61,579 nucleotides of DNA from Halorubrum sp. Hd13 (lineage in GTDB: Archaea; Halobacteriota; Halobacteria; Halobacteriales; Haloferacaceae), in contig NZ_NHOY01000120.1 in assembly GCF_002252755.1 (NCBI RefSeq), positions 1 through 61,579 on the forward strand, given 5' to 3'. Position 1 is the first letter of the stretch, and the number at the start of each line of letters is the position of its first letter. Positions 26,927 to 44,570 of the stretch are shown here, in pieces. Both the position numbers and the translations under genes were made by a program. A model generated the notes under the pieces. The model was not told where the DNA came from, made no database searches, and saw only the letters and a program-made list of their open reading frames with translations.

Positions 26927-28261
26927 TCAGGGTTTCTGTTTCCGAGCGGACTCACGCGCCTCCTCTAGGTCCATATCGAGGCCGATCTCCGATGCTTCCC
27001 GACGGACTGACTCGGCGTCGATGGCGGTCACTACTCCGTCATCCTGCAGGACAGTACCGTCTACCATCGTGAACTGAACGTCGTCGCCGTGAGCGGCGAA
27101 CACCAGATGCGAGAGCACATCGTGCAGTGGCGTCGCCCGCGTGAGATCCGTACTGAGACCAATGATATCAGCTCGCCATCCCTCCCGAATCGCGCCAAGT
27201 TCATCGAACCCGGCGGCTTTCGCACCGTTGATCGTCGCCATCTCGAATATCTCGCTCGCCGGGGTCGAGGTCGGATCCAGCCGATCAACCTTCTGGAGGA
27301 GGCTGGCCTGACGCATCTCCGTGAACGCGTCGAGCGTGTTGTTACACGGAGGACCGTCGTTGCCGAGGGCGACGTTGATGCCGCGGTCGAGATAGTCCCA
27401 TATCGGAGCGATGCCGCTGGCGAGTTTCATATTCGAAGACGGACAGTGCGTGACGTGCGTCCCCGTTTCGGCGAGTACCTCGCGCTCGCTTTCGTCAGTC
27501 CACACACAGTGGGCCAACACGACATCCTCGCCGGTGAGCCCGACCTCGTCGAGCCAGTGGATGTTTCGCATCCCGGTATCATTTTTCACGGTCTCGATTT
27601 CGTTTCGGTTCTCACTGGCGTGGGTGTGGATACGGACCCCGTCGTACGCGTCGGCCAGTTCGCGAGCGCCGCGGAGGCACTCTTCGGTACAGGAAACCGC
27701 GAATCGAGGTGTCACGGCGTACCGAATGCGGTCATCGAACGAGCCGTGGTACTCCTGAATGAGCCGCTCGGATTCGTCAAGGGCCTCCTGTGTATCCTCA
27801 AGGAGATCGTCGGGCGAGCGCTGATCCATCATCACCTTGCCGAGGACGCCACGGATACCGATCTCACCTGCAGCATCGAAAGCCTCCTCCGCGTGGGCGA
27901 CCGAGAGGTGATCCACACAGGTTGTCGTCCCGCTTTCGATCATCTCTAGATATCCCAGTTTTGCCGCGATCTCCATCTCTCTGGCCGAAAGTGTGGCCTC
28001 CATAGGGAGGATGTAGTCGAACAGCCAGTCCAGTAGTTCGGTATCGTCGGCAATTCCCCGCCCAAGGCTCTGAACGGAGTGGATGTGTCCGCCGACGAGT
28101 CCCGGTAGCAGGACGTCGTAGGATTGGTGTTCGTGGTCGGCATATTGTGGCACGATCTCGGATCGTTCGCCCACCGCCTCGATCCGTGACCCCGAGACGA
28201 CAACCGCTCCGTCTTGGAGTACCGTGTTCGTGTCTGCGACCACTGTTCCGGTCAATAACAT
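26927..28261 (-). CDS. Amidohydrolase, guanine/8-oxoguanine deaminase-like
   Basis: 444 residues from MLLTGTVVADTNT at 28261; the longer ORF adds 33 residues read through promoter-like AT sequence. Metal site: HIH in LVGGHIHSVQSLG, a His in RIHTHASENRNE, a His in VLAHCVWTDE and an Asp in ALGNDGPPCNN. This is the mononuclear deaminase subgroup including guanine deaminase, 8-oxoguanine deaminase and MTA/SAH deaminases. Between an AzgA permease and a xanthine/urate permease, guanine to xanthine is the most economical role. The Asn before the catalytic Asp replaces the commoner Thr. Confidence 0.85.
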   Translation of the reverse strand: MLLTGTVVADTNTVLQDGAVVVSGSRIEAVGERSEIVPQYADHEHQSYDVLLPGLVGGHIHSVQSLGRGIADDTELLDWLFDYILPMEATLSAREMEIAAKLGYLEMIESGTTTCVDHLSVAHAEEAFDAAGEIGIRGVLGKVMMDQRSPDDLLEDTQEALDESERLIQEYHGSFDDRIRYAVTPRFAVSCTEECLRGARELADAYDGVRIHTHASENRNEIETVKNDTGMRNIHWLDEVGLTGEDVVLAHCVWTDESEREVLAETGTHVTHCPSSNMKLASGIAPIWDYLDRGINVALGNDGPPCNNTLDAFTEMRQASLLQKVDRLDPTSTPASEIFEMATINGAKAAGFDELGAIREGWRADIIGLSTDLTRATPLHDVLSHLVFAAHGDDVQFTMVDGTVLQDDGVVTAIDAESVRREASEIGLDMDLEEARESARKQKP

Positions 28262-28461
28262 ACATATACCGTAATCAGTCGCAGGACAAAAAATTTCCCC
28301 TGCGGGCGGTGCGGGCGGAGTGGTACCCCGGGTGACCTGCCACGGACCGGCGCGGTTCACTCGTGTCGGTGCTCACGGATCACTCGACGAGGCCTTCCAG
28401 CGCGGTGGAGACGAGCGGAACTCGGCACAGGGAAAAATACTTGCTCGACCTCCGTCGGACC

Positions 28462-29832
28462 TCAATCGTCGTCGACTGGTTCGGAGATCGGCGGGACCGT
28501 GTCGGCCCGATCGAACAGCGGACTGGATTCGCCGGGGACGAACGTGTTCAGCGCGAGCGCCACCAGGCCGGTGACGATGACCGGTTCGCCGAAGAACGTT
28601 TGTGTACCCGATGGCAGTCCCGAGAGCGCATTCGGCACCGTCGCGACGCCGAGCCCGAGTCCGAGCGCCGTAGCGATGATGACCATGTTTCGACGATTCA
28701 TCTCGATGTTCAGGAACAACAGCCGCATGCCGCTGGCGGCCACCATGCCGACCATAATGAGCACGGCACCGCCGAAGACGGCGGAGGGGATGGTCGTCAC
28801 GATGGCTCCGATCTTCGGGACGAGTCCGAGCACGATCAGAATCCCACCGCCGATCCCGACGATGTGACGGCTCATCACGCCGGTGAAGTTGATGATGCCG
28901 ACGTTCTGGGAGAACGATGTCTGCGGGAAGGACCCGAAGACCGCTCCGAGGGCACTGATGAACCCGTCGGCGAAGATTCCGCCTCGGAATTCCTCTGTGG
29001 TGGGGTTGCGTCCCTCGGCGGCGGTGATCCCGGACATGTCGCCGATTGTTTCCATACCCGAGACGAGAAACAGGAACGCGAAGGTCAAAAGCGGGACCAA
29101 CTCGAAACTGAATCCGAACCGGCCGGGAGTGGGGACCGCGATCCACGCCGCTTCGTAGAAGGGCGTGAAGTCCACGACGCCGAACATGATCGCGACGACG
29201 TAGCCGGCGCTGATTCCGATGATGACACTCAACATTCGCCAGACTCCCTTCAAGAGCAGATTGAAGAGAACCGCGATCGTCAAGACCAGTCCTGCAAGCC
29301 CGAGGTTCTGCATCGAGCCGAAGTCTTCGGCACCGACCCCGCCAGCGGCGTACTGGATACCGACCGGAACGAGGTACAGACCGATGATGATGACGATGAG
29401 TCCCGTGACAAGCGGCGGGAAGAACGACTGGAGTCGTTTGAACTGCCAGCCCAACAGGAACGGAACGACGACTGCCGCGGCCACGATCGAGCCGAACACG
29501 ACGTCGAGGCCCGAACTCGCGCCGATCGATGACATCGCACCGACGAAGGCGAAACTTGTTCCCATCACGATCGGAAGTTTCGCGCCGACTGGACCCACGG
29601 CGTATGCTTGGACGACGGTCGCCACTCCCGCAAAGAGGATCACCATCTGAACCAAAAACGTCGTGTCTGCGGAGCTCAATCCCGCGGCTCCCGCGACGAT
29701 GAACGCGACTGCAGTCGACGGGACAATCATGACCGATACGTGTTGTAGCGCGAGCAGGAACGATTTCGACAACGGTGGCTTCTCTTCCAGACCGTATGCG
29801 AGATCGATTCCTTCGTCTGTGTTTCTAGGCAT
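28462..29832 (-). CDS. NCS2-family xanthine/urate permease
   Basis: 456 residues from MPRNTDEGIDLAYGLEEKPP. About 14 hydrophobic segments. Family motifs are LALQHVSVMIVPSTAVAF near the N-terminus, GTSFAFVGAM and SQNVGIINFTGVMSRH, typical of the UraA/XanQ/UacT branch (ATQNxGxxxxTGxxSR). Proton symport of xanthine and/or urate is inferred from the branch and from neighbouring urate oxidase. The intergenic region to 30094 is the probable promoter. Confidence 0.92.
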   Translation of the reverse strand: MPRNTDEGIDLAYGLEEKPPLSKSFLLALQHVSVMIVPSTAVAFIVAGAAGLSSADTTFLVQMVILFAGVATVVQAYAVGPVGAKLPIVMGTSFAFVGAMSSIGASSGLDVVFGSIVAAAVVVPFLLGWQFKRLQSFFPPLVTGLIVIIIGLYLVPVGIQYAAGGVGAEDFGSMQNLGLAGLVLTIAVLFNLLLKGVWRMLSVIIGISAGYVVAIMFGVVDFTPFYEAAWIAVPTPGRFGFSFELVPLLTFAFLFLVSGMETIGDMSGITAAEGRNPTTEEFRGGIFADGFISALGAVFGSFPQTSFSQNVGIINFTGVMSRHIVGIGGGILIVLGLVPKIGAIVTTIPSAVFGGAVLIMVGMVAASGMRLLFLNIEMNRRNMVIIATALGLGLGVATVPNALSGLPSGTQTFFGEPVIVTGLVALALNTFVPGESSPLFDRADTVPPISEPVDDD

Positions 29833-30093
29833 GTTCCGACATACCAATGAGACTTCTAATAATTAAAATCTTCTATTGATCTACTATATTTCATCCAAGA
29901 TATCACGGAATATTCTGGTTCGCACATCTATCGGGCGGATAGCGTTCGCTGTATGAGGTTCCGACGAAGCGCCGTTCGAGAACGGGTCGGGAACAGTCAC
30001 CTCCGAACGGACACGGTCAGCCATCGAATCGCTCCGCGGGGGATGTCGTGTCAACGGGACCGGCGTCTGGACGGCGACGGTTGTACTCGTAGC

Positions 30094-30441
30094 TCAGCTC
30101 CCACGGTACGTCGTGTAACTCCCAGGAGATAGGAGCAATGGCACGTGGTAGTGCTCGCTCGGATCGTCGATCAGGAACCGCACCGGAACCTCGTCGAGAA
30201 ACGTAGATTCCGTGGGACCCTCGCGGTAATACGTCCCCACGTCGAAGACGAGCTCGAACGTTCCGGCGTCGATCTCCTCGGCGTCGAGTAACGGCTCGTC
30301 GACTCGGCCATCGTGGTTCGTCACCGCTGACACGATCTGCTCGCGGTCTCCCTCTTCGAGTCGATACAGCGTCACTTCCACGCCCTCCGCCGGTCCTTCG
30401 CGATTTGTATCGAGTACGTGCGTGGTCAGTCCTGCGCTCAT
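30094..30441 (-). CDS. uraH: 5-hydroxyisourate hydrolase (transthyretin-like)
   Basis: 115 residues, complete. LTTHVLDTNREGPAEG near the N-terminus and the C-terminal TTYRGS tetrapeptide are the HIU hydrolase signatures. A His in SEHYHVPLLLSPGSY completes the active site. It hydrolyses 5-hydroxyisourate to OHCU. Its start overlaps the urate oxidase stop (ATGA), so it is translationally coupled downstream of the enzyme making its substrate. A degenerate paralogue is at 41076-41384. Confidence 0.96.
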   Translation of the reverse strand: MSAGLTTHVLDTNREGPAEGVEVTLYRLEEGDREQIVSAVTNHDGRVDEPLLDAEEIDAGTFELVFDVGTYYREGPTESTFLDEVPVRFLIDDPSEHYHVPLLLSPGSYTTYRGS

Positions 30442-31409
30442 ACGTTGCTCCCTTCGTCGAGGTCGCTGTGATCCATCGAGAACCGCTGGAATCCGGTCGG
30501 CCGAGGCGGTTCTCGAAGCACTTTCGCGTCACCCTCTAGGTCGTCATTCCGCACGCCTAGCCACGTCTGATTCCTGGATTCGAAATTCACTTCGGCCAGC
30601 TGCGGGAACCGTTCGAGGATTCGGAGTCCGATCTGATAGACGAGGTCTTGGATCGAGTTGACGTCTTTCTCATCGAAGACCACCTGTGCGATATCTCGCA
30701 CCTGCTCGGCAGGCACGTACTCTTTTGGATCGTCACCAAGCGCCGCCTTGGGGTCGTCGTACGTCCAGAAGATGTCGAGTCCGATATACAGCGTCCGATT
30801 CTCTCGTTCCGGAAGTGTGGTGTACTCGTCCTGAACGTAGCCGACGAAAGAGTTGTCTTTCACCTTCACGAGTTCGATATCGGTGACACCGCTTCGCTGA
30901 TTCTCGATGACGATGTCGCCGTCCTCCCGCTTGAGGTAGTACTCGCCGTACGCCGACTCGTTGTCGGAAACGCGGAAGACCAGTTCGCTCGGTTCGAAGC
31001 CGCCCTCGCCGTCTGGAACGGGTCGTTGGTCGAACTGGAGTTCATCGGCAGACATGCGGACTCCCTCCATCTGATCGTAGGTGTTGAGGAACTCCGAGCC
31101 GACGTAATGGAGAAAGCCCTCGACGGTCGCACCGTCGTACTCGCCAGCGTGGTGCAAGATGAAGTTCTTCATCGTGTCCGTTGCCACCACCTTCGTGTTG
31201 TCGCCGTCTCGGAACGAGGGGAGGAACTCCTCGCCCTCGACCTGCGCACGCACCTCCATCCCGAGGAGCGTGTTCGGCTTGCCAGTGAATGTCGACTCGG
31301 GAATCTCGCGGAGCCCCGTCAGTGGGGTTGCGTACGTCCGGTAGACGTTAACATGTTTTTTCCCGTAGTTCATCGTTCGGTCGTCGGTGTCTTGTGGTGT
31401 GTTTATCAT
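30438..31409 (-). CDS. Urate oxidase (cofactor-independent uricase)
   Basis: 323 residues (residue 13, MNYGKKHVNV, is an alternative start). Tandem T-fold uricase with YRTYATPLTG, NTKVVATDTMKNF (the conserved T-D-x-x-K-N motif), GYVQDEYTTLPERENR and QTWLG near the C-terminus. It oxidises urate to 5-hydroxyisourate with O2 and no cofactor. It is first in a two-gene operon with uraH. The length is near that of bacterial uricases. Confidence 0.95.
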   Translation of the reverse strand: MINTPQDTDDRTMNYGKKHVNVYRTYATPLTGLREIPESTFTGKPNTLLGMEVRAQVEGEEFLPSFRDGDNTKVVATDTMKNFILHHAGEYDGATVEGFLHYVGSEFLNTYDQMEGVRMSADELQFDQRPVPDGEGGFEPSELVFRVSDNESAYGEYYLKREDGDIVIENQRSGVTDIELVKVKDNSFVGYVQDEYTTLPERENRTLYIGLDIFWTYDDPKAALGDDPKEYVPAEQVRDIAQVVFDEKDVNSIQDLVYQIGLRILERFPQLAEVNFESRNQTWLGVRNDDLEGDAKVLREPPRPTGFQRFSMDHSDLDEGSNV

Positions 31410-31586: not shown

Positions 31587-32090
31587 CTACGGTTCCAGTA
31601 TTTCGTCGAGTCGCAGGCGCGCAATGGTGTGTACCTCATCGATGGCGGTCCGGAACTCCTCGGGTCGTGCGTGTTCGACCCGCTCTTCCATCGCGGCCCT
31701 GATCGCGTCGGGCGATTCGTCTCGTACGGCCATGATGAACGGGAAGCCGAAGCTGTCCTGATACCGGTCGTTCAGTCGCTGGAAGGCCTCATACTGCTCC
31801 GGAGTCAACTGATCGAGTCCGGCGGAGGCCTGCTCTTCGACGGAGGCGTCTGTCATCTCGGTCTGCTCGCCGAGGTCCGGATGTGCCCGCAGGAGTTCGA
31901 GCTGCCGATCGCGATCGGCAGCCTCGACGACGCGCTTCATCGTCTCGTGAAGGTCGTCGACCGACTCGAAGGGTCGGTCGGACCAAGCCCGTTCGGCCAC
32001 CCAGGGGGAATGTTCGTACACGCCGCCCAAGAGGTCGACAAACCTCTCTCTATCCGATCGGTTCACGTCCGTGATCGTTCGTTTGCTCAT
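31587..32090 (-). CDS. uraD: OHCU decarboxylase
   Basis: 167 residues. The catalytic LRAHPDLG motif and SFGFPFIMAVR are diagnostic for 2-oxo-4-hydroxy-4-carboxy-5-ureidoimidazoline decarboxylase, which yields S-allantoin stereospecifically. It lies 177 bp upstream of the uricase gene on the same strand and is divergent from the allantoinase-like gene. The 220-bp shared spacer has an AT-rich element for each direction (CTTAAATTCTC and CCCTTAAGAAC). Confidence 0.95.
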   Translation of the reverse strand: MSKRTITDVNRSDRERFVDLLGGVYEHSPWVAERAWSDRPFESVDDLHETMKRVVEAADRDRQLELLRAHPDLGEQTEMTDASVEEQASAGLDQLTPEQYEAFQRLNDRYQDSFGFPFIMAVRDESPDAIRAAMEERVEHARPEEFRTAIDEVHTIARLRLDEILEP

Positions 32091-32309
32091 CGTCCTCGCT
32101 GGTCAGACCGCCCGTCACTTAAATTCTCGTTCGCACTCACAGTCGGCCCGGAGCTGAGGCGGCGACAACGGAACAACCCTTAAGAACAGGTATCGAGTAT
32201 TCCAGGGTATGGTTAGCACGGTGAACGGAGCGAGACGATACAACTTCGCGGTGACTCTCGAATGTTGTGGATGGAACGCGGTCGATGTCCAAAGTCAGGG
32301 TGGACACCG

Positions 32310-33683
32310 GTGGTGAGTATTGACACCGTCGTCACCGGCGGGACCGTCGTTACCGCCGAGGCGATGTTCGAGGGGGCGGTCGCCATCGACGACGGTACGA
32401 TCGTAGGCGTAGGCGACGAAGATGCGTTTCCGGACGCGGAAGACCGGATCGACGCGGACGGGAACCTCGTCCTTCCAGGCGTGGTCGACCCACATACCCA
32501 TCTCGCAGGCTACAACTCAATCGACTCCTACGAGACCGGAACGGCGGCCGCTGCAGTCGGCGGCGTCACCAGTCTTCTGACCTTCGCCTGGCAGGGATGG
32601 GACGACGGAGAATGGGACGACCGGGGGACGCTGACCGGAGCCGTCGAACGGCATCGCGATGGCGCGGCACCACTCATCGACTGTGGGGTCCATCCGGTCA
32701 TCACACAAGAATCTCTCGCGGTGTTCGAGGAACTGGCGACGCTCGTCGACGACGGCATCACGTCGTTCAAACTCTTCACCACAGACGACATCCGACTGTC
32801 GAACGGATTCATCGGAGAGGTGTTCCGGCGGCTCGCCGACATCGGTGCCGTCGGGATGGTTCACACCGAAGAGTACTCCGTCTGCGAGCATCGGACGGAC
32901 GCGGTGAAAAGCGAACCCGGCGGTGAATCACCATCGGCGTATCCGCGGTCCCGCCCGGACTACGCGGAAGCGATGTCGGCCGGCTCCGTCGCCCGACTCG
33001 CTGTCGCGGCCGACGCAAAGTATTACGGCGTCCACACCACGTCGGCGGCGGCGGCGGACGCGATCGCGGAGGTGCAGACTGACGGTTCGAACGTCAGGGC
33101 GGAGACGTGTACGCACTATACCACGCTCACGGAGGAAACGTACGAACGACTCGGGAACCGGGCGATCATGTCTCCTCCCCTCCGGTCGTCTCAGGATGTG
33201 GATACCATTTTCGACCGACTCGGCGACGGGACACTTTCGGTCGTCTCGACCGACCACGTTCCGCTGCCTCGCGAACGGAAAGAGGGCGGGCCGTGGTGGG
33301 AAAGCGCCTTCGGGATCAACAGTCTCCAGACGAGCCTCCCCGTGTTCCACGACGTGGCCGTCAACGAACGTGGCCTCTCGTATCCGAATCTTGTCCGACT
33401 CATGTGCCGCAATCCGGCACAGACGTTCGGCTTACCGCGGAAGGGGCGGATCGAACCCGGTGCCGACGCCGATATCGTCATCTTCGATCCGGATGAGACG
33501 TACACCATCACGGCGGAGCGGAACCACTCGAATGCGGACTACTCTGTGTACGAAGGCCGGACGGTGACAGGTCGAGTGAAACAGAGCTTCGTGCGAGGGA
33601 CGCTCGTCGCCGACGACGGCGATATCGTCGCGAACCCCGGCCACGGGACCTTCTTGCGGCGTGAGGTGCCGGACTGGGGGTAA
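32310..33683 (+). CDS. Allantoinase / dihydropyrimidinase-family cyclic amidohydrolase
   Basis: 457 residues from GTG at 32310 (a second GTG follows at once). Binuclear Zn hydrolase pattern: HxH in GVVDPHTHLAG, the carbamylated Lys in ITSFKLFTTDD, Zn-binding His residues in VGMVHTEE and YYGVHTTSAA, and the Asp in VVSTDHVPL. D-hydantoinases, dihydropyrimidinases and allantoinases share this layout. Directly after the urate-to-allantoin genes and before an allantoate-type hydrolase, allantoinase is the best inference. It starts a plus-strand operon with the next two genes. Confidence 0.87.
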   Translation: MVSIDTVVTGGTVVTAEAMFEGAVAIDDGTIVGVGDEDAFPDAEDRIDADGNLVLPGVVDPHTHLAGYNSIDSYETGTAAAAVGGVTSLLTFAWQGWDDGEWDDRGTLTGAVERHRDGAAPLIDCGVHPVITQESLAVFEELATLVDDGITSFKLFTTDDIRLSNGFIGEVFRRLADIGAVGMVHTEEYSVCEHRTDAVKSEPGGESPSAYPRSRPDYAEAMSAGSVARLAVAADAKYYGVHTTSAAAADAIAEVQTDGSNVRAETCTHYTTLTEETYERLGNRAIMSPPLRSSQDVDTIFDRLGDGTLSVVSTDHVPLPRERKEGGPWWESAFGINSLQTSLPVFHDVAVNERGLSYPNLVRLMCRNPAQTFGLPRKGRIEPGADADIVIFDPDETYTITAERNHSNADYSVYEGRTVTGRVKQSFVRGTLVADDGDIVANPGHGTFLRREVPDWG

Positions 33684-33727: not shown

Positions 33728-34144
33728 GTGACACAACTAGAATTCGATGTCGATGGCCGTGTGTTCACAGCCGACTTGCTCGAGGATGAGGCACCTCGAT
33801 CGGTCGAAGCACTCCGGGAATTCCTCCCGCTCGAATCGGAACTGATGCACGTCCGCTGGAGCGGACACGCGACGTGGATCAATATCGACGAAATCGAACT
33901 CCCGGAGATTCCACGCGAGAATCACACAGTCTACCCGTCTCGGGGCGATATCCTGCTTTATCCAGGGTACCGGAACGAACAGGAAATTCTCATTCCCTGT
34001 GGCCCGACGTGTTTCAAGAGCCCCGCAGGAGAGCTCGCCGGCAACCACATCGCATGCCTTGACGCATCCCGAGAGGAACTCCGTGAGATCGAAGAAGAGA
34101 CGCTACAGACCGGCGCGAAGGACATCGTCGTCAGAGAGCGATAG
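33728..34144 (+). CDS. DUF3830 family protein (cyclophilin-like fold)
   Basis: 138 residues from GTG. The pattern TADLLEDEAPRSVEALREFLPL, ELMHVRWSGHATWIN, ENHTVYPSRGDILLYP and CGPTCFKSPAGELAGNHIA fits DUF3830, a small beta-barrel family related to cyclophilin-like proteins and often found near hydantoinases and amino-acid or ureide catabolic genes. No function is established. It sits 44 bp after the allantoinase and 117 bp before the ureido amidohydrolase on the same strand. A broken second copy at 44571 is again next to a hydrolase fragment. Confidence 0.85.
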   Translation: MTQLEFDVDGRVFTADLLEDEAPRSVEALREFLPLESELMHVRWSGHATWINIDEIELPEIPRENHTVYPSRGDILLYPGYRNEQEILIPCGPTCFKSPAGELAGNHIACLDASREELREIEEETLQTGAKDIVVRER

Positions 34145-34261: not shown

Positions 34262-35533
34262 ATGGGCAGCATGAAATCGGAACAACACTGTGTAAGCGAG
34301 GAGCGTCTCCGCGAGGATATCACAGCCAACGCGGAGTTTGGTGCCATTCAGACAGAGTTGGGGCAGGGACGAACCGTCCTAACCGGCACGGACGCGAACC
34401 GGCAGGCACGGGAGTATCTGGTCGATCGATTCGACGACGCCGGTCTCGACGTTCGTGTCGACGCCGTCGGTAATATCACCGGTCGGTGGGTACCCGAAGA
34501 GGCCGATCCGGCGGCTCGGTCGGTGGCGTGTGGGAGTCACCTCGATTCCGTGCCCGAAGGGGGCATCTTCGATGGAGTTCTCGGCGTCTACAGCGGATTG
34601 GAGGCCGTGCGAGCACTGCAGGCAGCCGACGTTGAGATCAACCGACCGATCGAAATCGTCTGTTTCACCGAGGAAGAGGGTGCGCGGTTCTCCAACGGCG
34701 TCCTCGGCTCGTCGGTCGCGAGCGGGAAGCGGAGCGTCGAAGAGGCCCTTGCACTCGAAGACGACGCAGGCGTGAGTCTCGAAGCGGCGCTTTCCGACAT
34801 CGGCTTCCGAGGCACCGGCCGCATTGACGCGAGCACGTGGGATTCGTGGCTCGAACTCCACGTTGAACAGGGGGAGCGTCTTCAAGAAGCGGACGCGGCC
34901 GTCGGCATCGTCTCGGTGATAACGGGCACCATCCGATGTGAAGTCGAAATCGAAGGTGAGGCGAACCACTCCGGATCGACGGCGATGGCCGAACGGACGG
35001 ACGCGCTGACCGCCGCGAGCGAACTCGTCCTTGAGGTGGAACATGTGACGAACGACGTCGCCGCCGAGGAGGGTGACACCGTCGTCGGGACGGTCGGGAG
35101 TCTCGACGTCTGGCCCAACGCCATCAACGTCGTCCCGGGGCGCGCGGAACTGGGAATCGATGTCCGCGACGTCGAGTACGAGAATATGGAACGAATCATC
35201 AAACGCGTCCAAAACCATCTCTCGACGCTCGAAAGCGACCGCAGCGTCGAGACGATGCTCGAACGACCATACGACATCGCGCCGAGCACGATGAGCGAGC
35301 GGTGTACGGCCGCGCTTCGAGACGCGGCGGCTGTAGCTGATGCGGATTCCCTGTGCATGCACTCCGGTGCAGGCCACGACACGATGCACATCGCGAGTGT
35401 CACGGACACGGGACTGCTGTTCGCACCGTCCCGCGGCGGGTTCTCGCATAGCCCCCGCGAATGGACGGACTGGAGCAGTTGTGCGACGGCTACGAGGGTG
35501 TTGACGGCCGGATTGGGGGAGCTGGCGCGCTAA
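34262..35533 (+). CDS. Allantoate / N-carbamoyl amino acid amidohydrolase (M20 family)
   Basis: 423 residues. M20/hydantoinase-carbamoylase fold: Zn ligands in GSHLDSVPEGGIFDGVLGV (His, Asp), FTEEEGARFSN (Glu), LELHVEQGE (His) and the C-terminal HSGAGHDTMH. A small dimerisation domain lies between about residues 210 and 325 and contains NHSGSTAM. These enzymes cleave allantoate, ureidoglycolate or N-carbamoyl amino acids. Context favours allantoate or ureidoglycolate. Two decayed partial copies lie at 36690-37250 and about 44395-44550. Confidence 0.9.
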   Translation: MGSMKSEQHCVSEERLREDITANAEFGAIQTELGQGRTVLTGTDANRQAREYLVDRFDDAGLDVRVDAVGNITGRWVPEEADPAARSVACGSHLDSVPEGGIFDGVLGVYSGLEAVRALQAADVEINRPIEIVCFTEEEGARFSNGVLGSSVASGKRSVEEALALEDDAGVSLEAALSDIGFRGTGRIDASTWDSWLELHVEQGERLQEADAAVGIVSVITGTIRCEVEIEGEANHSGSTAMAERTDALTAASELVLEVEHVTNDVAAEEGDTVVGTVGSLDVWPNAINVVPGRAELGIDVRDVEYENMERIIKRVQNHLSTLESDRSVETMLERPYDIAPSTMSERCTAALRDAAAVADADSLCMHSGAGHDTMHIASVTDTGLLFAPSRGGFSHSPREWTDWSSCATATRVLTAGLGELAR

Positions 35534-35604: not shown

Positions 35605-36416
35605 TTAGGGCTTCGAACCGGTGCCGTGGGTCGCCATATTGATGTTCACCTCAATGACGTTGGCCGCGCGTTGGACCTGCTCGGGTAGATCCCCGTTGAA
35701 CGGCGTTCCTTTCAGTCGACTGGTCGGGCCAGCGATGCTCGACGAGCCAAGGACGGTTTCCTCGTGGTCAATAACCGGCGCTCCGACAGCACGAAGACCC
35801 TCCACCTCCTCTTCATCGTTGTACGCGTGGCCCCGTTCGCGGATCGTCGCCAGTTCGTCGTGTAGTGCCTCCAGGTCGGTGATGGTGTTTGCCGTCCGTT
35901 CCTGGAGCCCGTGCTGTTCGAGGATCTCGTCACGGGGTCTTCGGGAAGAAAGGCTAGAATTGCCTCTCCCGTCGCCATACAGTGGAGTTGGTCTGGTTGG
36001 TGGAGTTTGTCCGTCTGGTAGCCGCTCCCGACGGCGTCGCTCCCGCAGACCTTGTACAAGTTGATCCCTTTGCCGTGCTGTTCGGTGAAGAGGTTCGCAT
36101 ACTCGCCGGTCATCTCGGCGAGCTCATCAACTTCCTCCTTGCCGTAGCGACACAAGGTGTTGCGGTTTCGGACGTACTCGCCGGACAGAAGGAATTGCAG
36201 ACCGATTTCGTACTGATCGTCGTTCTTGACGATCCAGTCTTTCTCCCGAAGCGTCGCCAAGTAGTGGTATGTCGAACTCTTCGACATCCCGACGTGAGCA
36301 GCCAGTTCGGTGACACCCGCACCGTCGAGTGTTTCGAGTGCTTTGATTATTTGAGCGGTTCGCTCAACCGTTTTCAACGTACGCGGTGATTTTTTTTTCT
36401 TCGATTCTATCGTCAT
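35605..36416 (-). pseudogene. IclR-family regulator, frameshifted
   Basis: The first 155 codons or so read an intact IclR N-terminus: a winged helix with AGVTELAAHVGMSKSSTYHYLATL, then effector-domain sequence to AILAFLPED. There the frame breaks, and the rest (EILEQHGLQERTANTIT ... VEGLRAVGAPVIDHEE ... NINMATHG) continues in another frame to 35605. Comparison with the intact paralogue at 45472 places a one-base deletion near 35937-35945, in the equivalent of its PRERVDKIL. The product would lack the effector domain. It is convergent with the purine operon, whose regulator it presumably was. Confidence 0.88.
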
Positions 36417-36689
36417 GTTCTGACACAGTACATTCTACCACTTAATCGTTCACATACTCCAAACGTAGACTGTAGTAGATTCTGTGTATCAGCGGGTTAT
36501 TGGAAGAAAGATCACTCGAAAACTCAAGTTTTGGTGGAATAATGTATGCTTGTCTAATTATTATCTCTACCGCCTGAGATCGATACGTCGGGGCGTTTTT
36601 GATATGGAAACAAATGAAACCCATACGCGAAGAAAAATAACAGAGATAACATGCAGTTCGAGCCAGGAGTCCAACTTACTCGCATCCAG
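36417..36689. other. AT-rich spacer
   Basis: Probable promoter of the frameshifted iclR (ACGATTAAGTGG before its start resembles ACGATTAAGTAAA before the intact paralogue). The rest is AT-rich with no gene. Confidence 0.45.
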
Positions 36690-37250
36690 TCACTCACTGC
36701 CTCGAAATCCAATGTCCTCGAGCGGGGATTCGAGCGTGACTCCTTCGACATCTTCGAGTGTGAGTGCCGCTTCAACAGTCCAATGTTGCTTACGACGGAG
36801 GATCCGAGCACGCCGTTCGAGAATCTCGCTCCCTCTTCTGCGGTGAAACAGACAACCTAGATCGGCCGGTCAAATTCGATGCCGGACTCCTGAAGCGCCC
36901 GTACGGCTTCGAGCCCGCTGTAGACGCCGAGCACCCCATCGAAGATACCCCCTTCGGGAACGGAGTCGATATGGCTCCCACAGGCGACTGCTGGTGCTGT
37001 TGGATCGGCGCTCTCGGGCACCCAGCGGCCGACGATATTGCCCACTTGCGTCAACGCGGACGTCAAGCCCTGCCGCCTCCAGGCGGTCGATGAAATACTC
37101 CCGCGCCTTTCTGTTTGCTTCCGTTCCCGTGAGTACAGTTCGACCGTGTCCTTGGTCAGTTACAACCTCTCCGAATTTCCCGGTTTCCGTGATATCGTCT
37201 CGGAGTCGGTCTTCGCTGACGCGCTGATGCGCTCCTTTCGCTTTACTCAT
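36690..37250 (-). pseudogene. Ureido amidohydrolase remnant, N-terminal half
   Basis: Read on the minus strand from MSKAKGAHQRVSEDRLRDDI at 37250, it follows the N-terminal 180 residues of the intact enzyme at 34262: TVLTGTEANRKAREYFIDRL, then in a second frame VGNIVGRWVPESADP, CGSHIDSVPEGGIFDG and FDRPI, a stop, then in another frame LGSSV and LEDVEGVTLESPLEDIGFRG before the final stop at 36690. Several frameshifts and a stop mean it is inactive. The C-terminal half is absent here, but a matching segment exists near 44.4-44.55 kb. Confidence 0.85.
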
Positions 37251-37804
37251 AACCCATCCCCCTATTAAACGGGCTTTAGTTTGAATATATCGGAGACGAT
37301 GACCCGGACGATGCGCAAATAACAGCAATCTCGCTCAACAGCATCAGATCGTACTGATTCGATGAGAAGACGTTATGATGATCCCCTCCCTGCTCAGGAT
37401 TTTCATATGGTGGGCTTTCGGCAGAACGGGATATACGTATAATTCAGAAAGTTCACCAGCTCGTACCTAAATTTCTGTTCGTATTTATCGAATATTCGTG
37501 CTGTTTCTCGCTATACCCCTTGATTGGCCCAGGGTACTGGATTATCTCTGCGTTCAACAGGTGCTTGATCGGTTGTTGAACATAGAACACATGTGTATAT
37601 AACAAGACTAGGTTTGTTATCTAGTAACGTCTTCTATATTTGATCCCGTTCTCTATTTTCGCATATTACGAACGAGCAGAGTTTTTGAAAGGGTGACGGT
37701 GAGACAGTAGCTGCCGAAGCAGAACGCGAGGAGGTACGAGTACAAATTACAGATGAAACTTCCCATAATACATCAGATGAGGGCAGAGAATTATCAAGAA
37801 TACA
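37251..37804. other. AT-rich spacer without gene
   Basis: About 550 bp of lower-GC sequence with no ORF showing a family signature. It separates two pseudogenes and is probably decayed sequence. Confidence 0.55.
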
Positions 37805-37945
37805 TTAGTTCGAATCCGTTACCTGAACGACGAACCCGTCGTGACTACGTTCGTTCTCCAGCGTAAACGGCCGGTGATAGTCGGGCTCGTACCACTCGTT
37901 TATTGCTTGGTGAATTTTCGATCGCCGCCACGAACACATCCATAG
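37805..37945 (-). pseudogene. Mosaic remnant of the D-2-hydroxyacid dehydrogenase locus
   Basis: Three short blocks match the intact gene at 41544-42482 in order and orientation but with large deletions: 37807-37850 matches the 3' flank at about 41507-41545 (CCCGTCGTGACTACG), 37849-37912 matches about 42060-42115 (AGCGTAAACGGCCGGTGATA, encoding YHRPFTLENE), and 37918-37935 matches about 42393-42412 (CGCCGCCACGAAC). This is an internally deleted duplicate. Confidence 0.75.
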
Positions 37946-38046
37946 GAATGTTTACATGCGTCTATTTGTCACCGTCAAGTTACCATCACTTCCAGCCAGT
38001 CTACACCGAGGGATAGTATTTTACAGACACACAAGGGACTCCGAAT

Positions 38047-39378
38047 GTGATCCAGAACAGAAAACAACTCGCAGTAACGCCTGCTCACAAGGTAGTCCTA
38101 GACTGTCTTGCAGCCGGGATCGAAGCAAGCCAACCGAAGAACGCCGTCGCAAACACGGTCTCCAAGGAAGACTCTAATCTTATCGTCGGCGACACCACAG
38201 TTGATCTCACTCAGTTCGAGCAAGTTGTCGTCCTCGGCGGCGGCAAAGCGGCCGCACAGTCGGCAAAGGCATTAGAAACGATCCTCGAAAACACGATATC
38301 GGGAGGCGTAGTCGTCACAAACGACCCACGAGAAACCAAACAAGTCGATGTGATTGAGGGATCTCATCCGGTTCCCAACGAAAGTGGCAAGGCGGGTGCA
38401 AAGGCGATATTATCGAGAGCGCAAAAGGCCGATGAAGGCACGCTCATTTTATTCCCACTCTCGGGTGGCGGTAGCTCTCTGCTTCCGCTCCCGGTTTCGG
38501 ATGTGATGCTAACTGACCTGCAGCAGGTGACTGAGAAACTTTTGACCAGCGGTGCGACTATCACCGAGATAAATACGGTTAGAAAACATATATCCCAGAT
38601 CAAAGGGGGACAATTCGCCATGGCGGCGGCTCCGGCAACAGTGATCGGGCTCGTTCTCAGTGACGTAGCTGGGAACAATTTAGGTACGATTGCAAGCGGC
38701 CCAATCGTGGGAGATAACACTACATACCAAGATGCAATATCGGTGTTGGAGTCATACGATATCGAACCACCGAATACAATTAAGACCCATCTCAGGCATG
38801 GTGCCGATAGAAAATTCGAAGAGACACCACAGTCAAATCATCACTGCTTCGATAATGTGTCGACACACATTCTCGCAGACGCGTCGACTGCAATCGACGC
38901 TGCAATCGATGAAATCACACATACACCGTTCACACCGTTCGTGCTCTCTACAAGCATCGAAGGCGAAGCCTGTGAGATCGGGAAGGTTCACAGTGCAATC
39001 GGAAACGAGATAATTCGGTCCGGTCGACCGATCGAGCCGCCCGCTGTCTTAATATCCGGTGGTGAAGCAACAGTGACGGTCCGAGGCGGTGGACTCGGCG
39101 GGCCAAATCAAGAGTTTGTTCTTGAGAGTCTACTTCAAGCAAGTTCAGAAGAGATGGTCGTTGCCAGCGTGGATACAGACGGAGAAGACGGTGCGACAGA
39201 TGCGGCAGGTGCGCTTGGCACCTCGACGATTGTATCCAATAAGGATATCGCGAGGCAGTCCCTAGACCAGAACGACACGTATCCGTATTTCTCGAGACGA
39301 GATGCGCTAGTTTACACCGGACAAACAGGAACTAACGTCAACGACTTGCGAATCATTGCAATACCCGATCCAAAATAA
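38047..39378 (+). CDS. Glycerate 2-kinase (DUF4147/MOFRL family)
   Basis: 443 residues from GTG at 38047. The N-terminal glycerate kinase domain shows VVVLGGGKAAAQSAKAL, the ligand-binding LFPLSGGGSSLLPLP and a conserved NTVRKHISQIKGGQFA. The C-terminal MOFRL domain has LISGGEATVTVRGGGLGGPN and SVDTDGEDGATDAAGA. It phosphorylates glycerate at C2, linking it to glycolysis. In this setting glycerate would come from tartronate or hydroxypyruvate, that is from glyoxylate released by ureide breakdown. GC content is lower than in the purine core. Confidence 0.92.
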   Translation: MIQNRKQLAVTPAHKVVLDCLAAGIEASQPKNAVANTVSKEDSNLIVGDTTVDLTQFEQVVVLGGGKAAAQSAKALETILENTISGGVVVTNDPRETKQVDVIEGSHPVPNESGKAGAKAILSRAQKADEGTLILFPLSGGGSSLLPLPVSDVMLTDLQQVTEKLLTSGATITEINTVRKHISQIKGGQFAMAAAPATVIGLVLSDVAGNNLGTIASGPIVGDNTTYQDAISVLESYDIEPPNTIKTHLRHGADRKFEETPQSNHHCFDNVSTHILADASTAIDAAIDEITHTPFTPFVLSTSIEGEACEIGKVHSAIGNEIIRSGRPIEPPAVLISGGEATVTVRGGGLGGPNQEFVLESLLQASSEEMVVASVDTDGEDGATDAAGALGTSTIVSNKDIARQSLDQNDTYPYFSRRDALVYTGQTGTNVNDLRIIAIPDPK

Positions 39379-39535
39379 GCATACCCACGTTAACCCATGT
39401 GAGGAGACCTATAATGCAGGGAATTATCCAGATAACGAGCCCCACTGTCCATTTATCCTCAAATACTCTAGAAATTGAGGCAGTTAATCCCGCCGCAAGG
39501 ACTGCACCGCTAATTGCTGATTCACACTCTTTCAT
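39353..39535 (-). pseudogene. Possible membrane-protein remnant
   Basis: A 60-residue ORF with hydrophobic stretches (GAVLAAGLTASIS and VGLVIWIIPCIIGLLTWVN). It overlaps the glycerate kinase stop by 26 bp on the opposite strand. It could be the tail of a decayed transporter or a chance ORF; no family is recognised. Confidence 0.25.
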
Positions 39536-39791
39536 CTACCCCCATCGCTTGGGTATCTACTAGCTGAGGAGCGACAGAAGATAGATCTATTATCCATCGA
39601 ATTCAGAGACGGACATCTACAACTGACTCATAATCAACACCAAGAAATATTGAGTAAGTGGACTAAATGTCGAACATGTCGAGACCAGTCTTGGGGTCGT
39701 TGGCTACTGAGTAGTCCATTAATCAATAAACATTTATATAATATTTCTTATCAAAGGAAATATTTAAACAGCCCTGTTGAAATGTTATTTT
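39536..39791. other. AT-rich promoter region
   Basis: Strongly AT-rich. ATTTATATAATATTTC at about 39732-39748 is a good TATA-like element some 45-60 bp before the dehydrogenase start at 39792. Confidence 0.45.
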
Positions 39792-40859
39792 ATGGGCACG
39801 TACGATATTGCAGTGATCCCAGGGGATGGTATCGGTCCTGCAGTGACTGATGCAGCGTTAGATGTTCTCAACGCAACGGCCGAAAAGTACGGATTCGAAC
39901 TCAATCAAACAGAGTACGATTGGAGCACTGAACGGTACCTCGAGACGGGTTCGATGATGCCAAACGACGGGCTCGATCAAATAGAGTCTGCAGACTCTAT
40001 TTTTCTCGGAGCTGTGGGTCATCCAGATGTTCCCGATCATATCACGTTGAACGGTCTTTTACTGCCGATCCGGAAAGGGTTTGACCAGTACATCTGTAAA
40101 CGGCCAAACACGCTTTTCGAGGGGATCGATAGTCCTCTAAAAGGATACGAAGCAGGTGAGATCGACCTCGTCGTGTATCGTGAAAATACAGAAGGGGAGT
40201 ACGCGGACGTCGGTGGACGGGAACATCAAGGCTTCAGTAACGAAATTGCTGTTCAATCGGGTGTATTCACGCGCAAGGGAACCGAACGGATCGTCCGAAG
40301 TGCGTTTGAGGCGGCGACCGAGCGGAACGGACACCTAACGAGCATCACAAAGTCCAACGCACAGGCGTACTCAATGGTGTTCTGGGATGATATTGTCGAT
40401 GAAGTGAGTACAGAGTATCCCGAAGTTGACGTGGAGAGTATCCTCGTGGATCGAGCGTCGATGGATCTTGTTCGCCGACCTGAAGAGTTCGATGTTGTCG
40501 TCGCGTCGAATCTCTTCGGAGATATTTCGACAGACATCGCGGCGATCACGACTGGAAGCCTTGGACTTGCCCCGTCTGGCAACATCAATCCGAACAACGA
40601 GTATCCAGATATGTTCGAGCCTGTCCACGGAAGCGCACCAGATATCGTAGGGCAAGGCATCGCAAACCCACTTGCAGCTATACTCACGGGCGCGATGATG
40701 TTCGAATACTTGGGTGACGGTGAGATAGCGGCTGCCGAAACATTACGCAAGGAGGTACAAGCACAAATCGCCGACGAAACTGCCCCACATACACCGGATC
40801 TGGGCGGAGAATCGTCAACAGTTGACGTCACTGAAGATTTGCTCTCTCGTATCTTGTAA
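39792..40859 (+). CDS. Tartrate/D-malate-type beta-decarboxylating dehydrogenase
   Basis: 355 residues from the ATG at 39792 (a TTG at 39777 is in frame). Isopropylmalate/isocitrate dehydrogenase fold: IAVIPGDGIGP, VVYRENTEGEYADVGG, the Mg-binding NLFGDISTDIAA and the adenine-binding EPVHGSAPDI.G...ANP. The segment GHPDVPDHITLNGLLLPIRK with QYICKRP is the variant of tartrate dehydrogenase and D-malate dehydrogenase rather than LeuB. It would give oxaloglycolate, hydroxypyruvate or pyruvate from C4 hydroxyacids. It fits with the neighbouring glycerate kinase and hydroxyacid dehydrogenase. Confidence 0.87.
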   Translation: MGTYDIAVIPGDGIGPAVTDAALDVLNATAEKYGFELNQTEYDWSTERYLETGSMMPNDGLDQIESADSIFLGAVGHPDVPDHITLNGLLLPIRKGFDQYICKRPNTLFEGIDSPLKGYEAGEIDLVVYRENTEGEYADVGGREHQGFSNEIAVQSGVFTRKGTERIVRSAFEAATERNGHLTSITKSNAQAYSMVFWDDIVDEVSTEYPEVDVESILVDRASMDLVRRPEEFDVVVASNLFGDISTDIAAITTGSLGLAPSGNINPNNEYPDMFEPVHGSAPDIVGQGIANPLAAILTGAMMFEYLGDGEIAAAETLRKEVQAQIADETAPHTPDLGGESSTVDVTEDLLSRIL

Positions 40860-41075
40860 TTTACTTGAGTGTTTTAGAGGGTGCTACATAGATAACCATA
40901 AACAATTGTTCCACCAGGGGTGTCAACCTTAGCGTACAGTAATTTGACGGTAATATGAGTTTGACGGGTACTGTCTAGTTGAAGTGGTTTCAGAAGTAAG
41001 CAGATCGTAGTGAGTGGTGCTCATGACACTCGCAGACCTGCTCAAACAGACGTTAGACGTGGATTGTGAAGACGT

Positions 41076-41384
41076 TTGGGAGAACGAGCGCACTCCGACA
41101 CCGGTCAGGATGTTCGGGGTGCGGATGAACCAGAAACAATCAGTCAGGGGATAACAAACGACGATGGTCGACTGGATGAGCCTCTCCTGACCGACGAAGA
41201 AATGGAAGAAGGGACCTATCAGCTGCTGTTCGATGTCAGTAGCTACTACGAGAGAGCAGAGTCCACCGACACAAGCTTTCTTGATACGGTTCCTGTGCGG
41301 TTCAAGACCTCCGATCCCGAGGAGCACCACCACGTTCCGCTCCTCTTCTCTCCCGGCGGGTACACGACCTACCGTTGGAGCTAG
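41076..41384 (+). pseudogene. HIU hydrolase remnant
   Basis: The C-terminal two thirds match the intact uraH at 30094: TISQGITNDDGRLDEPLLTD, FDVSSYYE, DTSFLDTVPVRF, HHHVPLLFSPGGYTTYR. The N-terminal catalytic THVLDT motif is missing; the preceding residues GERAHSDTGQDVRG do not align. The terminal signature YRGS has become YRWS. It is therefore probably inactive. Confidence 0.8.
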
Positions 41385-41543
41385 CGATGAGTATTTTTTG
41401 GACTTCCGTCGTCGTTTCCTGTTAACAGATTGTTTCTTCTACTAGTGCCGACTACCTGATATTGGACCGGCAATATCGACAAAACCCGTCGCCGACAAAG
41501 ACGATAGTTCGTATCCGTTGCCTGAGCAACGACCCCGTCGTGA

Positions 41544-42482
41544 CTACGCTACCCGATTCCGCAGGTCTTCGTCCGCCAGGTAGTAATCGATATTTTCTTT
41601 CACCAGATTCGCAATATCGACGTGATACCGGTTCGTCGCCGACCCCTTGTGCGGTGAGATCATCACCTCGTCGAAGTCCCACAGAGGGGATTCTTCTGGA
41701 AGCGGTTCAGTTTCAAAAACATCCAGTCCGGCTCCCGAGATCTCGCCACGTTCGAGTGCGTCGACGAGTGCGGCCTCATCCACAAGGGGACCGCGAGCGA
41801 CGTTGATCAAGTACGCGTCATCTCGCATCTGCGCGAGTGCCGACTCGTCAATCATGTGCTCAGTAGACGGCGTGTGTGGCACCGTAAGCGCGACGAACCG
41901 TGCGTCCGCTATCGCATCATTCAACTCATCGGGCTGGAATACCTTCGAGACCCCCGGAACGGGATCGGTCGAGCGACGTATTCCGATCACATCCATCCCC
42001 AGCGCGTCGGCACGCTTCGCGATACCCCTCCCAATCGTTCCCAGTCCGACGACGCAGATCCGTTCGTTCTCCAGCGTAAACGGCCGGTGATAGTCGGGCT
42101 CGTACCACTCGTTTGCCGCTTGATGATCGCGGTACACGTGAAGGTTTCTAGCCAACGACAGCATGAATCCCAAGGCGACTTCGCTCACGGTTGTCTCGTG
42201 GATCCCAGTACTATTCGTGAGCGGTACGCCAGTAGACCGATATCGCTCTGTATCGAATTCGTCGTATCCGGCGCGGATACAGTGAACCCACCCAGCATCC
42301 AGAAACTCATCGTGTGGTACGTAGGTCGCGACCGCATCCATTTCTGTGATAGGTTCCTGATCTCCTATAAGCTCGACGTCGAGTGGTCCATCTTCGAGCG
42401 CCGCCACGAACGCTTCCTTGGGAATCACGTTTTCGACCGATTCGTGTACACACAGCCGATCCAAGTCTGTAGACTCCGGCAT
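41544..42482 (-). CDS. D-2-hydroxyacid dehydrogenase
   Basis: 312 residues. The NAD-binding Rossmann motif is ICVVGLGTIGRGIAKRA. The active site is Arg in INVARGPLVDEAAL, Glu in DVFETEPLPEESPLW and His in VMISPHKGS. The substrate-side domain is short, as in haloarchaeal GyaR/HPR-like members. It probably interconverts glyoxylate/glycolate or hydroxypyruvate/glycerate. An internally deleted copy lies at 37805-37945. It is divergent from the TPP enzyme gene with a 165-bp AT-rich spacer. Confidence 0.9.
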   Translation of the reverse strand: MPESTDLDRLCVHESVENVIPKEAFVAALEDGPLDVELIGDQEPITEMDAVATYVPHDEFLDAGWVHCIRAGYDEFDTERYRSTGVPLTNSTGIHETTVSEVALGFMLSLARNLHVYRDHQAANEWYEPDYHRPFTLENERICVVGLGTIGRGIAKRADALGMDVIGIRRSTDPVPGVSKVFQPDELNDAIADARFVALTVPHTPSTEHMIDESALAQMRDDAYLINVARGPLVDEAALVDALERGEISGAGLDVFETEPLPEESPLWDFDEVMISPHKGSATNRYHVDIANLVKENIDYYLADEDLRNRVA

Positions 42483-42647
42483 ACTAAGTTATCGAACGAT
42501 GCCGATAATAAACCTTGGTGTCATGAGAAATATTTGACCTCCAGAGGAGCGGCGAATCCGCCTCAATCAGAATATACGATCATTATGATTATTTTTAAAT
42601 GATTCCGTACTTTTATGACACATGAGAATCGTTGAGTAATAGACGGT

Positions 42648-44258
42648 ATGAATGTAACAGAGGCAATAGCCGATATATTAGCCCAAGAGGAGGTCAAGCA
42701 CCTGATCGGATTCCCTAGTAATCCACTGTTTGACGATAACGCTGCGGAGGAAGCCGGAATTCGTCCGATTGTGGTCCGTCAAGAGCGCACAGGCGCGCAC
42801 ATGCTGGATGGTATCGCCCGCATCACATCCGGCAATCAGGTGGGAGCGTTCGCTTGCCAGCACGGTCCTGGGACCGAGAACTCGGTCGGTGGCATCGCAC
42901 AGGCGTACGCGGAGTCAGCTCCGATCGTCGCGATCCCCGCGGGGTACTCGCGGGCCAAGACGAATACCGATCCCAAGTTCAGCTCGCTCATAAACTACCA
43001 GCACGTTACCAAAACCGCCGAGCAGTTGACCGATCCGGACTCCGTCAGTGAGATGTTCCGTCGCGCGTTCCAATCGGCGCGGAACGGCCGTCAACGACCG
43101 GCACTCGTCGAGGTCCCCAAAGACGTATTCAGTGAAGAGATTGGCGACGTCGAGTATGCATCAACCTCGTCAACTCGATCTGCTCCTGATCCGGAGGCAA
43201 TCCCGGAGATCGTCGACGTACTCCTAGAGGCCGATAATCCCGTCATCAACGCCGGCCAGGGTGTCCACTATGCGGAGGCGTGGGACCCGCTGCAGGAACT
43301 CGCTGAGCTGCTCGAAGCGCCCGTTGCGACCACGTTGAACGGGAAAAGCGCCTTCCCTGAAGATCACCCGCTTTCCCTCGGTGCCGGGAGTAAAAGTGAA
43401 CCACGGGCACTGAATCACTTCCTCGAGAAGTCGGACGTCATCTTCGGAATTGGCTGCAGCTTCACGAAGACAGCGTACGGAATTACCGTGCCCGATGGCA
43501 AGACGCTGATCCACTCAACCCTTGATGCGGGTGACATCGACAAAGATGTCGAATCTGACTACGGTCTTGTCGGTGACGCGAAGCTGACGCTCGAAGCTCT
43601 TGTTGACGAGGTTCAAGACCGGCTCAACGGCGACTCGCGTGGCCGATTCGATACCGTTGCCAACGAGATCGCCGAGGTCGAAGCAGAATGGCGTGAGGAT
43701 TGGGAAGCCACGTTGACATCAGACGAAGTGCCGATCAATCCCTACCGGGTCGTGTACGAGCTCGATCGGGTCCTCGATAAAGACGAAATCATCGCCACAG
43801 CCGACGCCGGGAATGCTCGCGACTTTATGGCGCCCTTCTTTGAGGTGACCGAACCACTATCGTACGTCGGATGGGGTAAGACGACTCAGTTAGGGTACGG
43901 TCTCGGGCTGATGATGGGTGCGAAGCTCGCACGGCCAGACAAGACATGCGTTCACGTGATGGGCGACGGTGCCATCGGTATGACCGGAATGGACTTTGAG
44001 ACGGCCGTTCGAGAGGACATTCCGGTTCTCGAGATCGTCTTAAACAACTTTGAGATGGCGAGCTACGATACGCCTTTCTCGGGCCATTATGCTGACTTTG
44101 CGGAATCGATGGGCGGGTACGGTGAACGGATCGAAGACCCCGACAATATTGCAGACGCGATTCGACGTGGCGTCCAGAAAAATAAAGAAGGGACACCGGT
44201 GCTACTGGAGTTCCTTACGTCCAAAGAGACCGCGTTATCCCGTCCTGATCTCGAATAA
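42648..44258 (+). CDS. Thiamine diphosphate-dependent enzyme (acetolactate synthase-like)
   Basis: 536 residues with the three domains of the POX/AHAS family. The N-terminal PYR domain has the ThDP-activating Glu46 in VVRQERTGAHMLDG and GPGTENSVGGIAQA. A central TPP_M domain follows at about 190-320. The C-terminal PP domain carries MGDGAIGMTGMDFETAV ending IVLNN, the Mg-ThDP motif. The neighbours make glyoxylate carboligase tempting, but true Gcl has Val at the Glu position, so a decarboxylase or other carboligase remains possible. Length is typical. Confidence 0.82.
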   Translation: MNVTEAIADILAQEEVKHLIGFPSNPLFDDNAAEEAGIRPIVVRQERTGAHMLDGIARITSGNQVGAFACQHGPGTENSVGGIAQAYAESAPIVAIPAGYSRAKTNTDPKFSSLINYQHVTKTAEQLTDPDSVSEMFRRAFQSARNGRQRPALVEVPKDVFSEEIGDVEYASTSSTRSAPDPEAIPEIVDVLLEADNPVINAGQGVHYAEAWDPLQELAELLEAPVATTLNGKSAFPEDHPLSLGAGSKSEPRALNHFLEKSDVIFGIGCSFTKTAYGITVPDGKTLIHSTLDAGDIDKDVESDYGLVGDAKLTLEALVDEVQDRLNGDSRGRFDTVANEIAEVEAEWREDWEATLTSDEVPINPYRVVYELDRVLDKDEIIATADAGNARDFMAPFFEVTEPLSYVGWGKTTQLGYGLGLMMGAKLARPDKTCVHVMGDGAIGMTGMDFETAVREDIPVLEIVLNNFEMASYDTPFSGHYADFAESMGGYGERIEDPDNIADAIRRGVQKNKEGTPVLLEFLTSKETALSRPDLE

Positions 44259-44550: not shown

Positions 44551-44570
44551 GCTTGCGACCCGGTAGCCGG

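Follow-up and report, generated by a model that had tools for sequence, protein, structure and literature searches.

DUF3830 Proteins with a Predicted Cyclophilin-like Fold as Candidate Enzymes of Ureide Breakdown in Haloarchaea and Bacteria

The Uricolytic Locus of Halorubrum sp. Hd13

The stretch of DNA analyzed here (the window, 61,579 nucleotides) is one contig of the 3.8-Mb draft assembly of Halorubrum sp. Hd13; the closest matches are haloarchaeal throughout. It harbors a complete haloarchaeal uricolytic cluster leading from urate towards allantoate (Table 1). Within this cluster, a short DUF3830 gene (GTG start, 138 amino acids) is preceded by a cyclic amidohydrolase gene and followed by an M20 amidohydrolase gene, all three located on the plus strand. 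The gene called in the original prediction is real: in the Pfam scan at an E-value threshold of 0.001, the sole match of its product was PF12903 (E = 2.3e-37, 128.6 bits vs. the curated cut-off of 26, with positions 4–139 of the 143-position profile covered), and no match to the ureidoglycolate enzyme AllA (PF04115) was found in this protein.

Table 1. Positions of the uricolytic genes and of the decayed gene copies in the window
Feature	Positions	Strand	Evidence
Amidohydrolase, possibly purine deaminase (role from context)	26927–28360	-	PF01979, 1.8e-69
Xanthine/uracil-type permease	28462–29847	-	PF00860, 1.7e-84
5-Hydroxyisourate hydrolase (HIUase)	30094–30441	-	PF00576, 1.1e-35
Uricase	30438–31409	-	PF01014, 6e-32
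OHCU decarboxylase	31587–32090	-	PF09349, 3.6e-51
Cyclic amidohydrolase, allantoinase/hydantoinase-like (start may be 32310)	32262–33683	+	Amidohydro_3 + Amidohydro_1
DUF3830 protein, predicted cyclophilin-like fold, candidate ureide-pathway enzyme	33728–34144	+	PF12903, 128.6 bits; AlphaFold2
M20 amidohydrolase, probable allantoate amidohydrolase	34262–35533	+	TIGR01879, 358.7 bits (cut-off 204)
Decayed M20 copy, longer	36648–37250	-	tblastn, 76.6% (94 aa) and 42.6% (209 alignment columns)
Short stretch like the M20 gene, by the DUF3830 remnant	44425–44491	-	67 nt, 78% complementary to 34894–34960
Decayed DUF3830 copy (frameshifts, stop, internal deletion)	44539–44825	-	tblastn, two frames (44539–44763 and 44583–44825)

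The original prediction placed the gene between allantoinase-like and allantoate-type hydrolase genes in one operon. The position and the common direction hold, but the operon does not follow: the gaps flanking the DUF3830 gene (44 and 117 bp) both contain, judged by eye, AT-rich, TATA-like stretches, so one shared transcript is only a possibility. The names of the two flanking enzymes also call for some caution. The cyclic amidohydrolase scores below the NCBIfam cut-offs for both AllB (TIGR03178, 275.5 vs. 357.85 bits) and D-hydantoinase (311 vs. 393 bits), hence the label “allantoinase” is based on context. The M20 protein passes the hydantoinase/carbamoylase amidase model (Table 1), falls narrowly short of the allantoate amidohydrolase model NF006771 (395.1 vs. 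399), and fails the AllC equivalog TIGR03176 (234.8 vs. 597.75).

A second, broken copy of the DUF3830 gene, reported earlier near position 44571 as fused to a fragment of the same hydrolase, does exist as a decayed remnant, matched by the genome search at 44539–44724. It is 51% identical to the intact protein over 93 residues, is frameshifted, carries an in-frame stop, and has lost the WSGHATW stretch. The fusion was rejected: the M20-like stretch lies 48 bp past the remnant, on the strand predicted by the intact gene order, and its resemblance to the M20 gene is seen at the DNA level only (no tblastn match at E 0.01). The arrangement looks like a deletion inside a decaying duplicate, and the segment is a decaying duplication, not a fusion. 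The retention of the neighborhood in two copies was originally offered as support for a functional link. Two linked copies in one genome, one of them in a decaying segment, are weak evidence of such a link; it is other genomes that provide strong evidence.

The decaying duplicate (35626–46299) also includes two IclR genes 71% alike, a partial HIUase gene (41133–41381), and, near 37.7–37.9 kb, fragments of hydroxyacid and tartrate-type dehydrogenase genes, together with the M20 and DUF3830 remnants. Between 38047 and 44258, genes for a glycerate 2-kinase-like protein, a tartrate-dehydrogenase-like protein, a haloarchaeal D-2-hydroxyacid dehydrogenase, and a TPP enzyme stand side by side; a route from glyoxylate to glycerate beside the urate cluster is possible. 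The TPP enzyme (42648–44258) was considered as a glyoxylate carboligase and rejected, since it passed NF004807 (796 bits) and reached 228.9 of the 791 bits set by the carboligase model.

Co-Occurrence with Urate Breakdown in Haloarchaea

Of the 292 Halobacteria genomes sampled, 49 encode DUF3830 and 28 encode OHCU decarboxylase, which marks urate breakdown; every one of these 28 has DUF3830 as well (hypergeometric 4e-26; by genus 14/14, 4e-10, with kinship not fully corrected). The distribution is patchy over haloarchaeal families and genera. Both genes were also matched in the control genome of Haloferax volcanii. In this organism, HVO_B0299–B0302 were proposed as a cluster converting urate into allantoin within a degradation pathway termed highly speculative; the passage of that source describing the cluster does not name DUF3830 (PMC8305020).

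The gene neighborhoods point in the same direction. Ureide or uricolytic clusters surround DUF3830 in 40 of 46 haloarchaeal neighborhoods, and an M20 gene is located within 20 kb in 41 of 47 and an allantoinase-type gene in 32 of 47. Among the genes directly adjoining haloarchaeal DUF3830, 50 of 94 (53%) are of the M20 or allantoinase type vs. ca. 3% at distance 4–8. Together with the complete co-occurrence, these neighborhoods bear out, at the pathway level, the suggestion that DUF3830 is a candidate missing player in ureide breakdown.

Bacterial Distribution and the Two Clades of the Family

Since the first bacterial sets had been chosen by similarity, whole-genome samples were searched, revealing DUF3830 in 28/398 Pseudomonadota, 33/296 Actinomycetota, and 75/301 Chloroflexota genomes. 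One hundred bacterial neighborhoods were read; the Chloroflexota share comprised the best-scoring 40 places from the 75 positive genomes, so divergent copies from this phylum are under-represented. With both clades of the family (see below) counted, ureide or urate genes were present within 7.5 kb in 14/28 Pseudomonadota, 17/32 Actinomycetota, and 31/40 (best-scoring) Chloroflexota loci. Gemmatimonadota loci likewise feature ureide genes, including a neighbor exceeding the AllB cut-off (532 bits).

A tree of 192 DUF3830 proteins splits into a main clade of 172 and a separate clade of 20 sequences (support 0.998), and every ureide context falls in the main clade. Uricase/HIUase/OHCU decarboxylase, allantoinase or M20 genes accompany its members in 17/17 Actinomycetota loci, 14/22 Pseudomonadota loci, and 31/38 Chloroflexota loci among the best-scoring 40 places. 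No ureide genes were found around the separate clade (0/20), whose neighbors are amidase, racemase, and related genes. According to the tree and the alignment columns, the window protein is a main-clade member carrying R43, W44, S45, G46, W50, E64, E86, N106, and H107. The survey of neighborhoods, proposed originally as a check on whether DUF3830 lies mostly next to unrelated pathways, thus turned up a predominance of ureide/uricolytic clusters for the clade of the window gene.

An accidental neighborhood, i.e., a protein of unrelated function traveling with the cluster, is compatible with the separate clade and with those haloarchaeal and proteobacterial loci that are devoid of ureide context. 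Still, the same association recurs in Halobacteria, Chloroflexota, Actinomycetota, Gemmatimonadota, and Pseudomonadota under different gene orders, and the OHCU decarboxylase never occurs without DUF3830 in the sampled haloarchaea; the survey leaves this explanation close to refuted and highly improbable. The main clade very probably functions in the catabolism of allantoin and related ureides.

Association with the Pathway rather than with a Single Partner

The enzymes next to DUF3830 are exchangeable. In Pseudomonadota, its neighbor is PuuE (549 and 533 bits, cut-off 424.6), which is unrelated to the TIM-barrel allantoinase. In five Actinomycetota loci (L314, L315, L318, L319, and L321), genes of carbamoyltransferase and carbamate kinase lie beside DUF3830, and the stretches read yielded no M20 gene. 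These loci are urate clusters with an allantoinase-type gene, the carbamoyltransferase being of the aspartate/ornithine type (L315 also possesses an asparaginase-like gene), a gene set suggestive of allantoate degradation by phosphorolysis with a yield of ATP. Because the gene is kept when either the AllB-like allantoinase or the M20 enzyme is replaced, DUF3830 tracks the pathway and not one partner protein.

This pattern bears on the idea of a non-catalytic helper that assembles, folds, regulates or delivers metal to the allantoinase or the M20 amidohydrolase. Such a role would agree with the frequent direct adjacency of DUF3830 to one of these genes and with a fold common to prolyl isomerases. 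However, one would not expect a helper dedicated to a single hydrolase to outlast the exchange of the TIM-barrel enzyme for PuuE or of M20 for carbamoyltransferase and carbamate kinase, and the polar residues R43, S45, E64, E86, N106, and H107 are 99–100% conserved in 172 sequences, in the manner of an active site. A helper is, hence, quite unlikely; the metallochaperone role suggested earlier becomes less likely for the same reason, i.e., the persistence of DUF3830 next to unrelated enzymes replacing the hydrolases.

Another role considered is that of an allantoin (ureide) racemase or isomerase operating before or beside allantoinase. A racemase is often part of hydantoin pathways, and in some Proteobacteria DUF3830 is found beside hydantoinase-type and Asp/Glu racemase genes. 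At the same time, (S)-allantoin is the product of OHCU decarboxylase, and the DUF3830 clusters of haloarchaea, Actinomycetota, and Pseudomonadota usually include the gene of this enzyme, making racemization less likely; some loci also possess both DUF3830 and genes of the Asp/Glu racemase family. Overall, a racemase appears distinctly improbable.

On the other side of the pathway, 13 of the 32 Actinomycetota loci have genes of glyoxylate assimilation (Hyi, tartronate-semialdehyde reductase, Gcl, and glycerate kinase) close to DUF3830. In Thauera such genes flank DUF3830, the carboligase, the isomerase, and one reductase model being passed outright.

The Gap after Allantoate

Once allantoate amidohydrolase has acted, the pathway still has to release glyoxylate from ureidoglycine and ureidoglycolate. 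The search for known enzymes of this part of the pathway covered AllA, AllE, and allantoicase; a PucG-type aminotransferase, AllD or a UAH of the plant type may still serve here. In the 28 uricolytic haloarchaea, AllA (PF04115) was absent (0/28), the AllE model (TIGR03214) gave no score above the cut-off, and allantoicase (PF03561) was not matched (0/28; the control genomes likewise had no match). Among the uricolytic DUF3830-positive genomes of bacteria, AllA was found in 0/22 tested Chloroflexota and 1/17 Actinomycetota, and in 5/10 Pseudomonadota. A caveat for this gap is the possible non-enzymatic conversion of ureidoglycolate into glyoxylate and urea (PMC3527362).

AllA, the enzyme producing glyoxylate and urea, features a cupin fold and needs nickel (PMC3793230). 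DUF3830 would occupy the same place in the pathway as AllA and AllE, the latter being a cupin by the name of its model, but the protein matches PF12903 only.

Predicted Fold and Conserved Residues

The AlphaFold2 model of the window protein, built from a 55-sequence alignment, has a mean pLDDT of 95 and a pTM of 0.89, and its predicted fold is cyclophilin-like, with VIA Z values of 19.4 for 3KOP, 18.0 for KslB, 16.8 for McbB, and ca. 11 for true cyclophilins. The nearest solved relative is the DUF3830-like protein 3KOP (YP_831253.1, Arthrobacter sp. FB24; rmsd 2.1 over 138 residues, profile E 1e-7). It is only 21% identical to the window protein, and its sequence resembles the separate clade, a long-form one found mostly in Actinomycetota, whose neighbors are amidase and racemase rather than ureide genes; like the members of that clade, it is lacking the WSG motif, E86, and H107. 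Judging from its sequence, 3KOP probably belongs to that separate, non-ureide clade. Two cyclophilin-like proteins of unassigned function, TM1367 and AF2241, share the fold at Z values of 14.1 and 11.0, respectively, at ca. 20% identity.

The enzymes closest in the predicted fold, KslB (residues 179–317, rmsd 1.9) and McbB (residues 1–140, 23% identity), are imine-forming Pictet-Spenglerases joining the amine of tryptophan to an aldehyde or an oxo acid. They comprise ca. 300 residues with a further domain and operate in secondary metabolism, whereas DUF3830 is a single-domain protein of 138 residues from a primary catabolic cluster; it thus shares the fold of their catalytic domain but not their overall architecture. 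The profile search of PDB sequences started from DUF3830 did not reach McbB or KslB, so the likeness is one of fold alone, and the modeled fold by itself does not prove function. In McbB, Glu97 is the residue named in catalysis (PMC9366743); E86 of DUF3830 would be a candidate counterpart.

Conservation within the main clade (172 sequences) reaches 99% at R43, W44, S45, E86, S98, N106, and H107 and 100% at G46, W50, and E64. In the separate clade, R43, S45, G46, W50, E86, and H107 are mostly replaced. The clade-specific conserved set of the main clade comprises R43, W44, S45, G46, E86, and H107.

Proposed Function

The presence of DUF3830 in every sampled OHCU-positive haloarchaeon and its recurrence in bacterial allantoin clusters argue that it is probably an enzyme of the pathway, most likely acting near the glyoxylate-releasing step. 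Among the roles suggested earlier, that of a ureidoglycolate-processing enzyme fits best, the reaction itself being a proposal. From its position, the missing enzymes, and the predicted fold, the main-clade protein can be tentatively regarded, at somewhat less than even odds, as a lyase turning ureidoglycine or ureidoglycolate into glyoxylate; its catalysis, substrate, and acting residues are conjectural. In such a scheme, a small cyclophilin-like enzyme would split the unstable aminal or carbinolamine left once allantoate has been cut, so that ureidoglycine and/or ureidoglycolate would give glyoxylate and urea (plus ammonia), and an unrelated protein would fill the place of AllA, with or without AllE. 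It would not be a simple replacement of AllA everywhere, since AllA is encoded in half of the ten uricolytic DUF3830-positive Pseudomonadota genomes and AllE accompanies DUF3830 and M20 at a Paracoccus locus.

The chemistry of DUF3830 may exceed ureidoglycolate, since some main-clade loci are devoid of uricolytic genes and instead present hydantoinase/dihydropyrimidinase, TrzD, acetamidase, asparaginase or amidase neighbors, for which a reaction confined to ureidoglycolate would not be of obvious use. Accordingly, a broader amide- or ureide-directed enzyme (e.g., a lyase or hydrolase acting on amide or N-carbamoyl intermediates), with ureide breakdown as one use, has to be weighed. The presence of dihydropyrimidinase, dihydroorotase-like, and TrzD ring-opening amidohydrolase genes, as well as those of acetamidase and asparaginase, beside main-clade members speaks in its favor. 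Yet urate and allantoin are by far the commonest context, and asparaginase or acetamidase alone could explain the hydrolysis of amides, so the broader scope seems rather unlikely.

The full reading, to which we assign a rough probability of just under 0.4, is that the main clade is a ureidoglycine/ureidoglycolate lyase, the first cyclophilin-like ureide enzyme, spread over archaea and bacterial phyla, and a primary-metabolism relative of the Pictet-Spenglerase domain. The DUF3830 family would gain a testable function, and the candidate would close one pathway gap in several phyla: AllA is missing from the sampled uricolytic haloarchaea, Chloroflexota, and most Actinomycetota. If true, the cyclophilin-like fold would be an enzyme scaffold for chemistry at the glyoxylate carbon, and the Pictet-Spenglerases would stand beside an older catabolic family. 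No mention of DUF3830, PF12903, IPR024532 or YP_831253 was found in the open-access literature searched, and the open-access reports combining cyclophilin-like with allantoin or hydantoinase concern mostly cyclic amidohydrolases.

Other Neighbors and Multiple Copies

In five haloarchaeal loci (L054, L066, L073, L075, and L077), DUF3830 adjoins genes of a short-chain dehydrogenase and an ABC transporter with no uricolytic genes nearby, and four of the five feature an asparaginase gene; a second role at haloarchaeal loci of this kind is possible. A LOG/LDcluster4 (“lysine decarboxylase”-like) gene adjoins DUF3830 in several Halorubrum loci, and a gene similar to it in appearance is found beside DUF3830 in a Herbaspirillum MAG. 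The number of copies varies as well: a Chloroflexota genome (G1162) contains 13 DUF3830 matches over two contigs (C64 and C65), and divergent DUF3830 genes occur in tandem in Actinomycetota (at least three at locus L326) and in Paracoccus, where a pair (L090) is located near the AllE and M20 genes.
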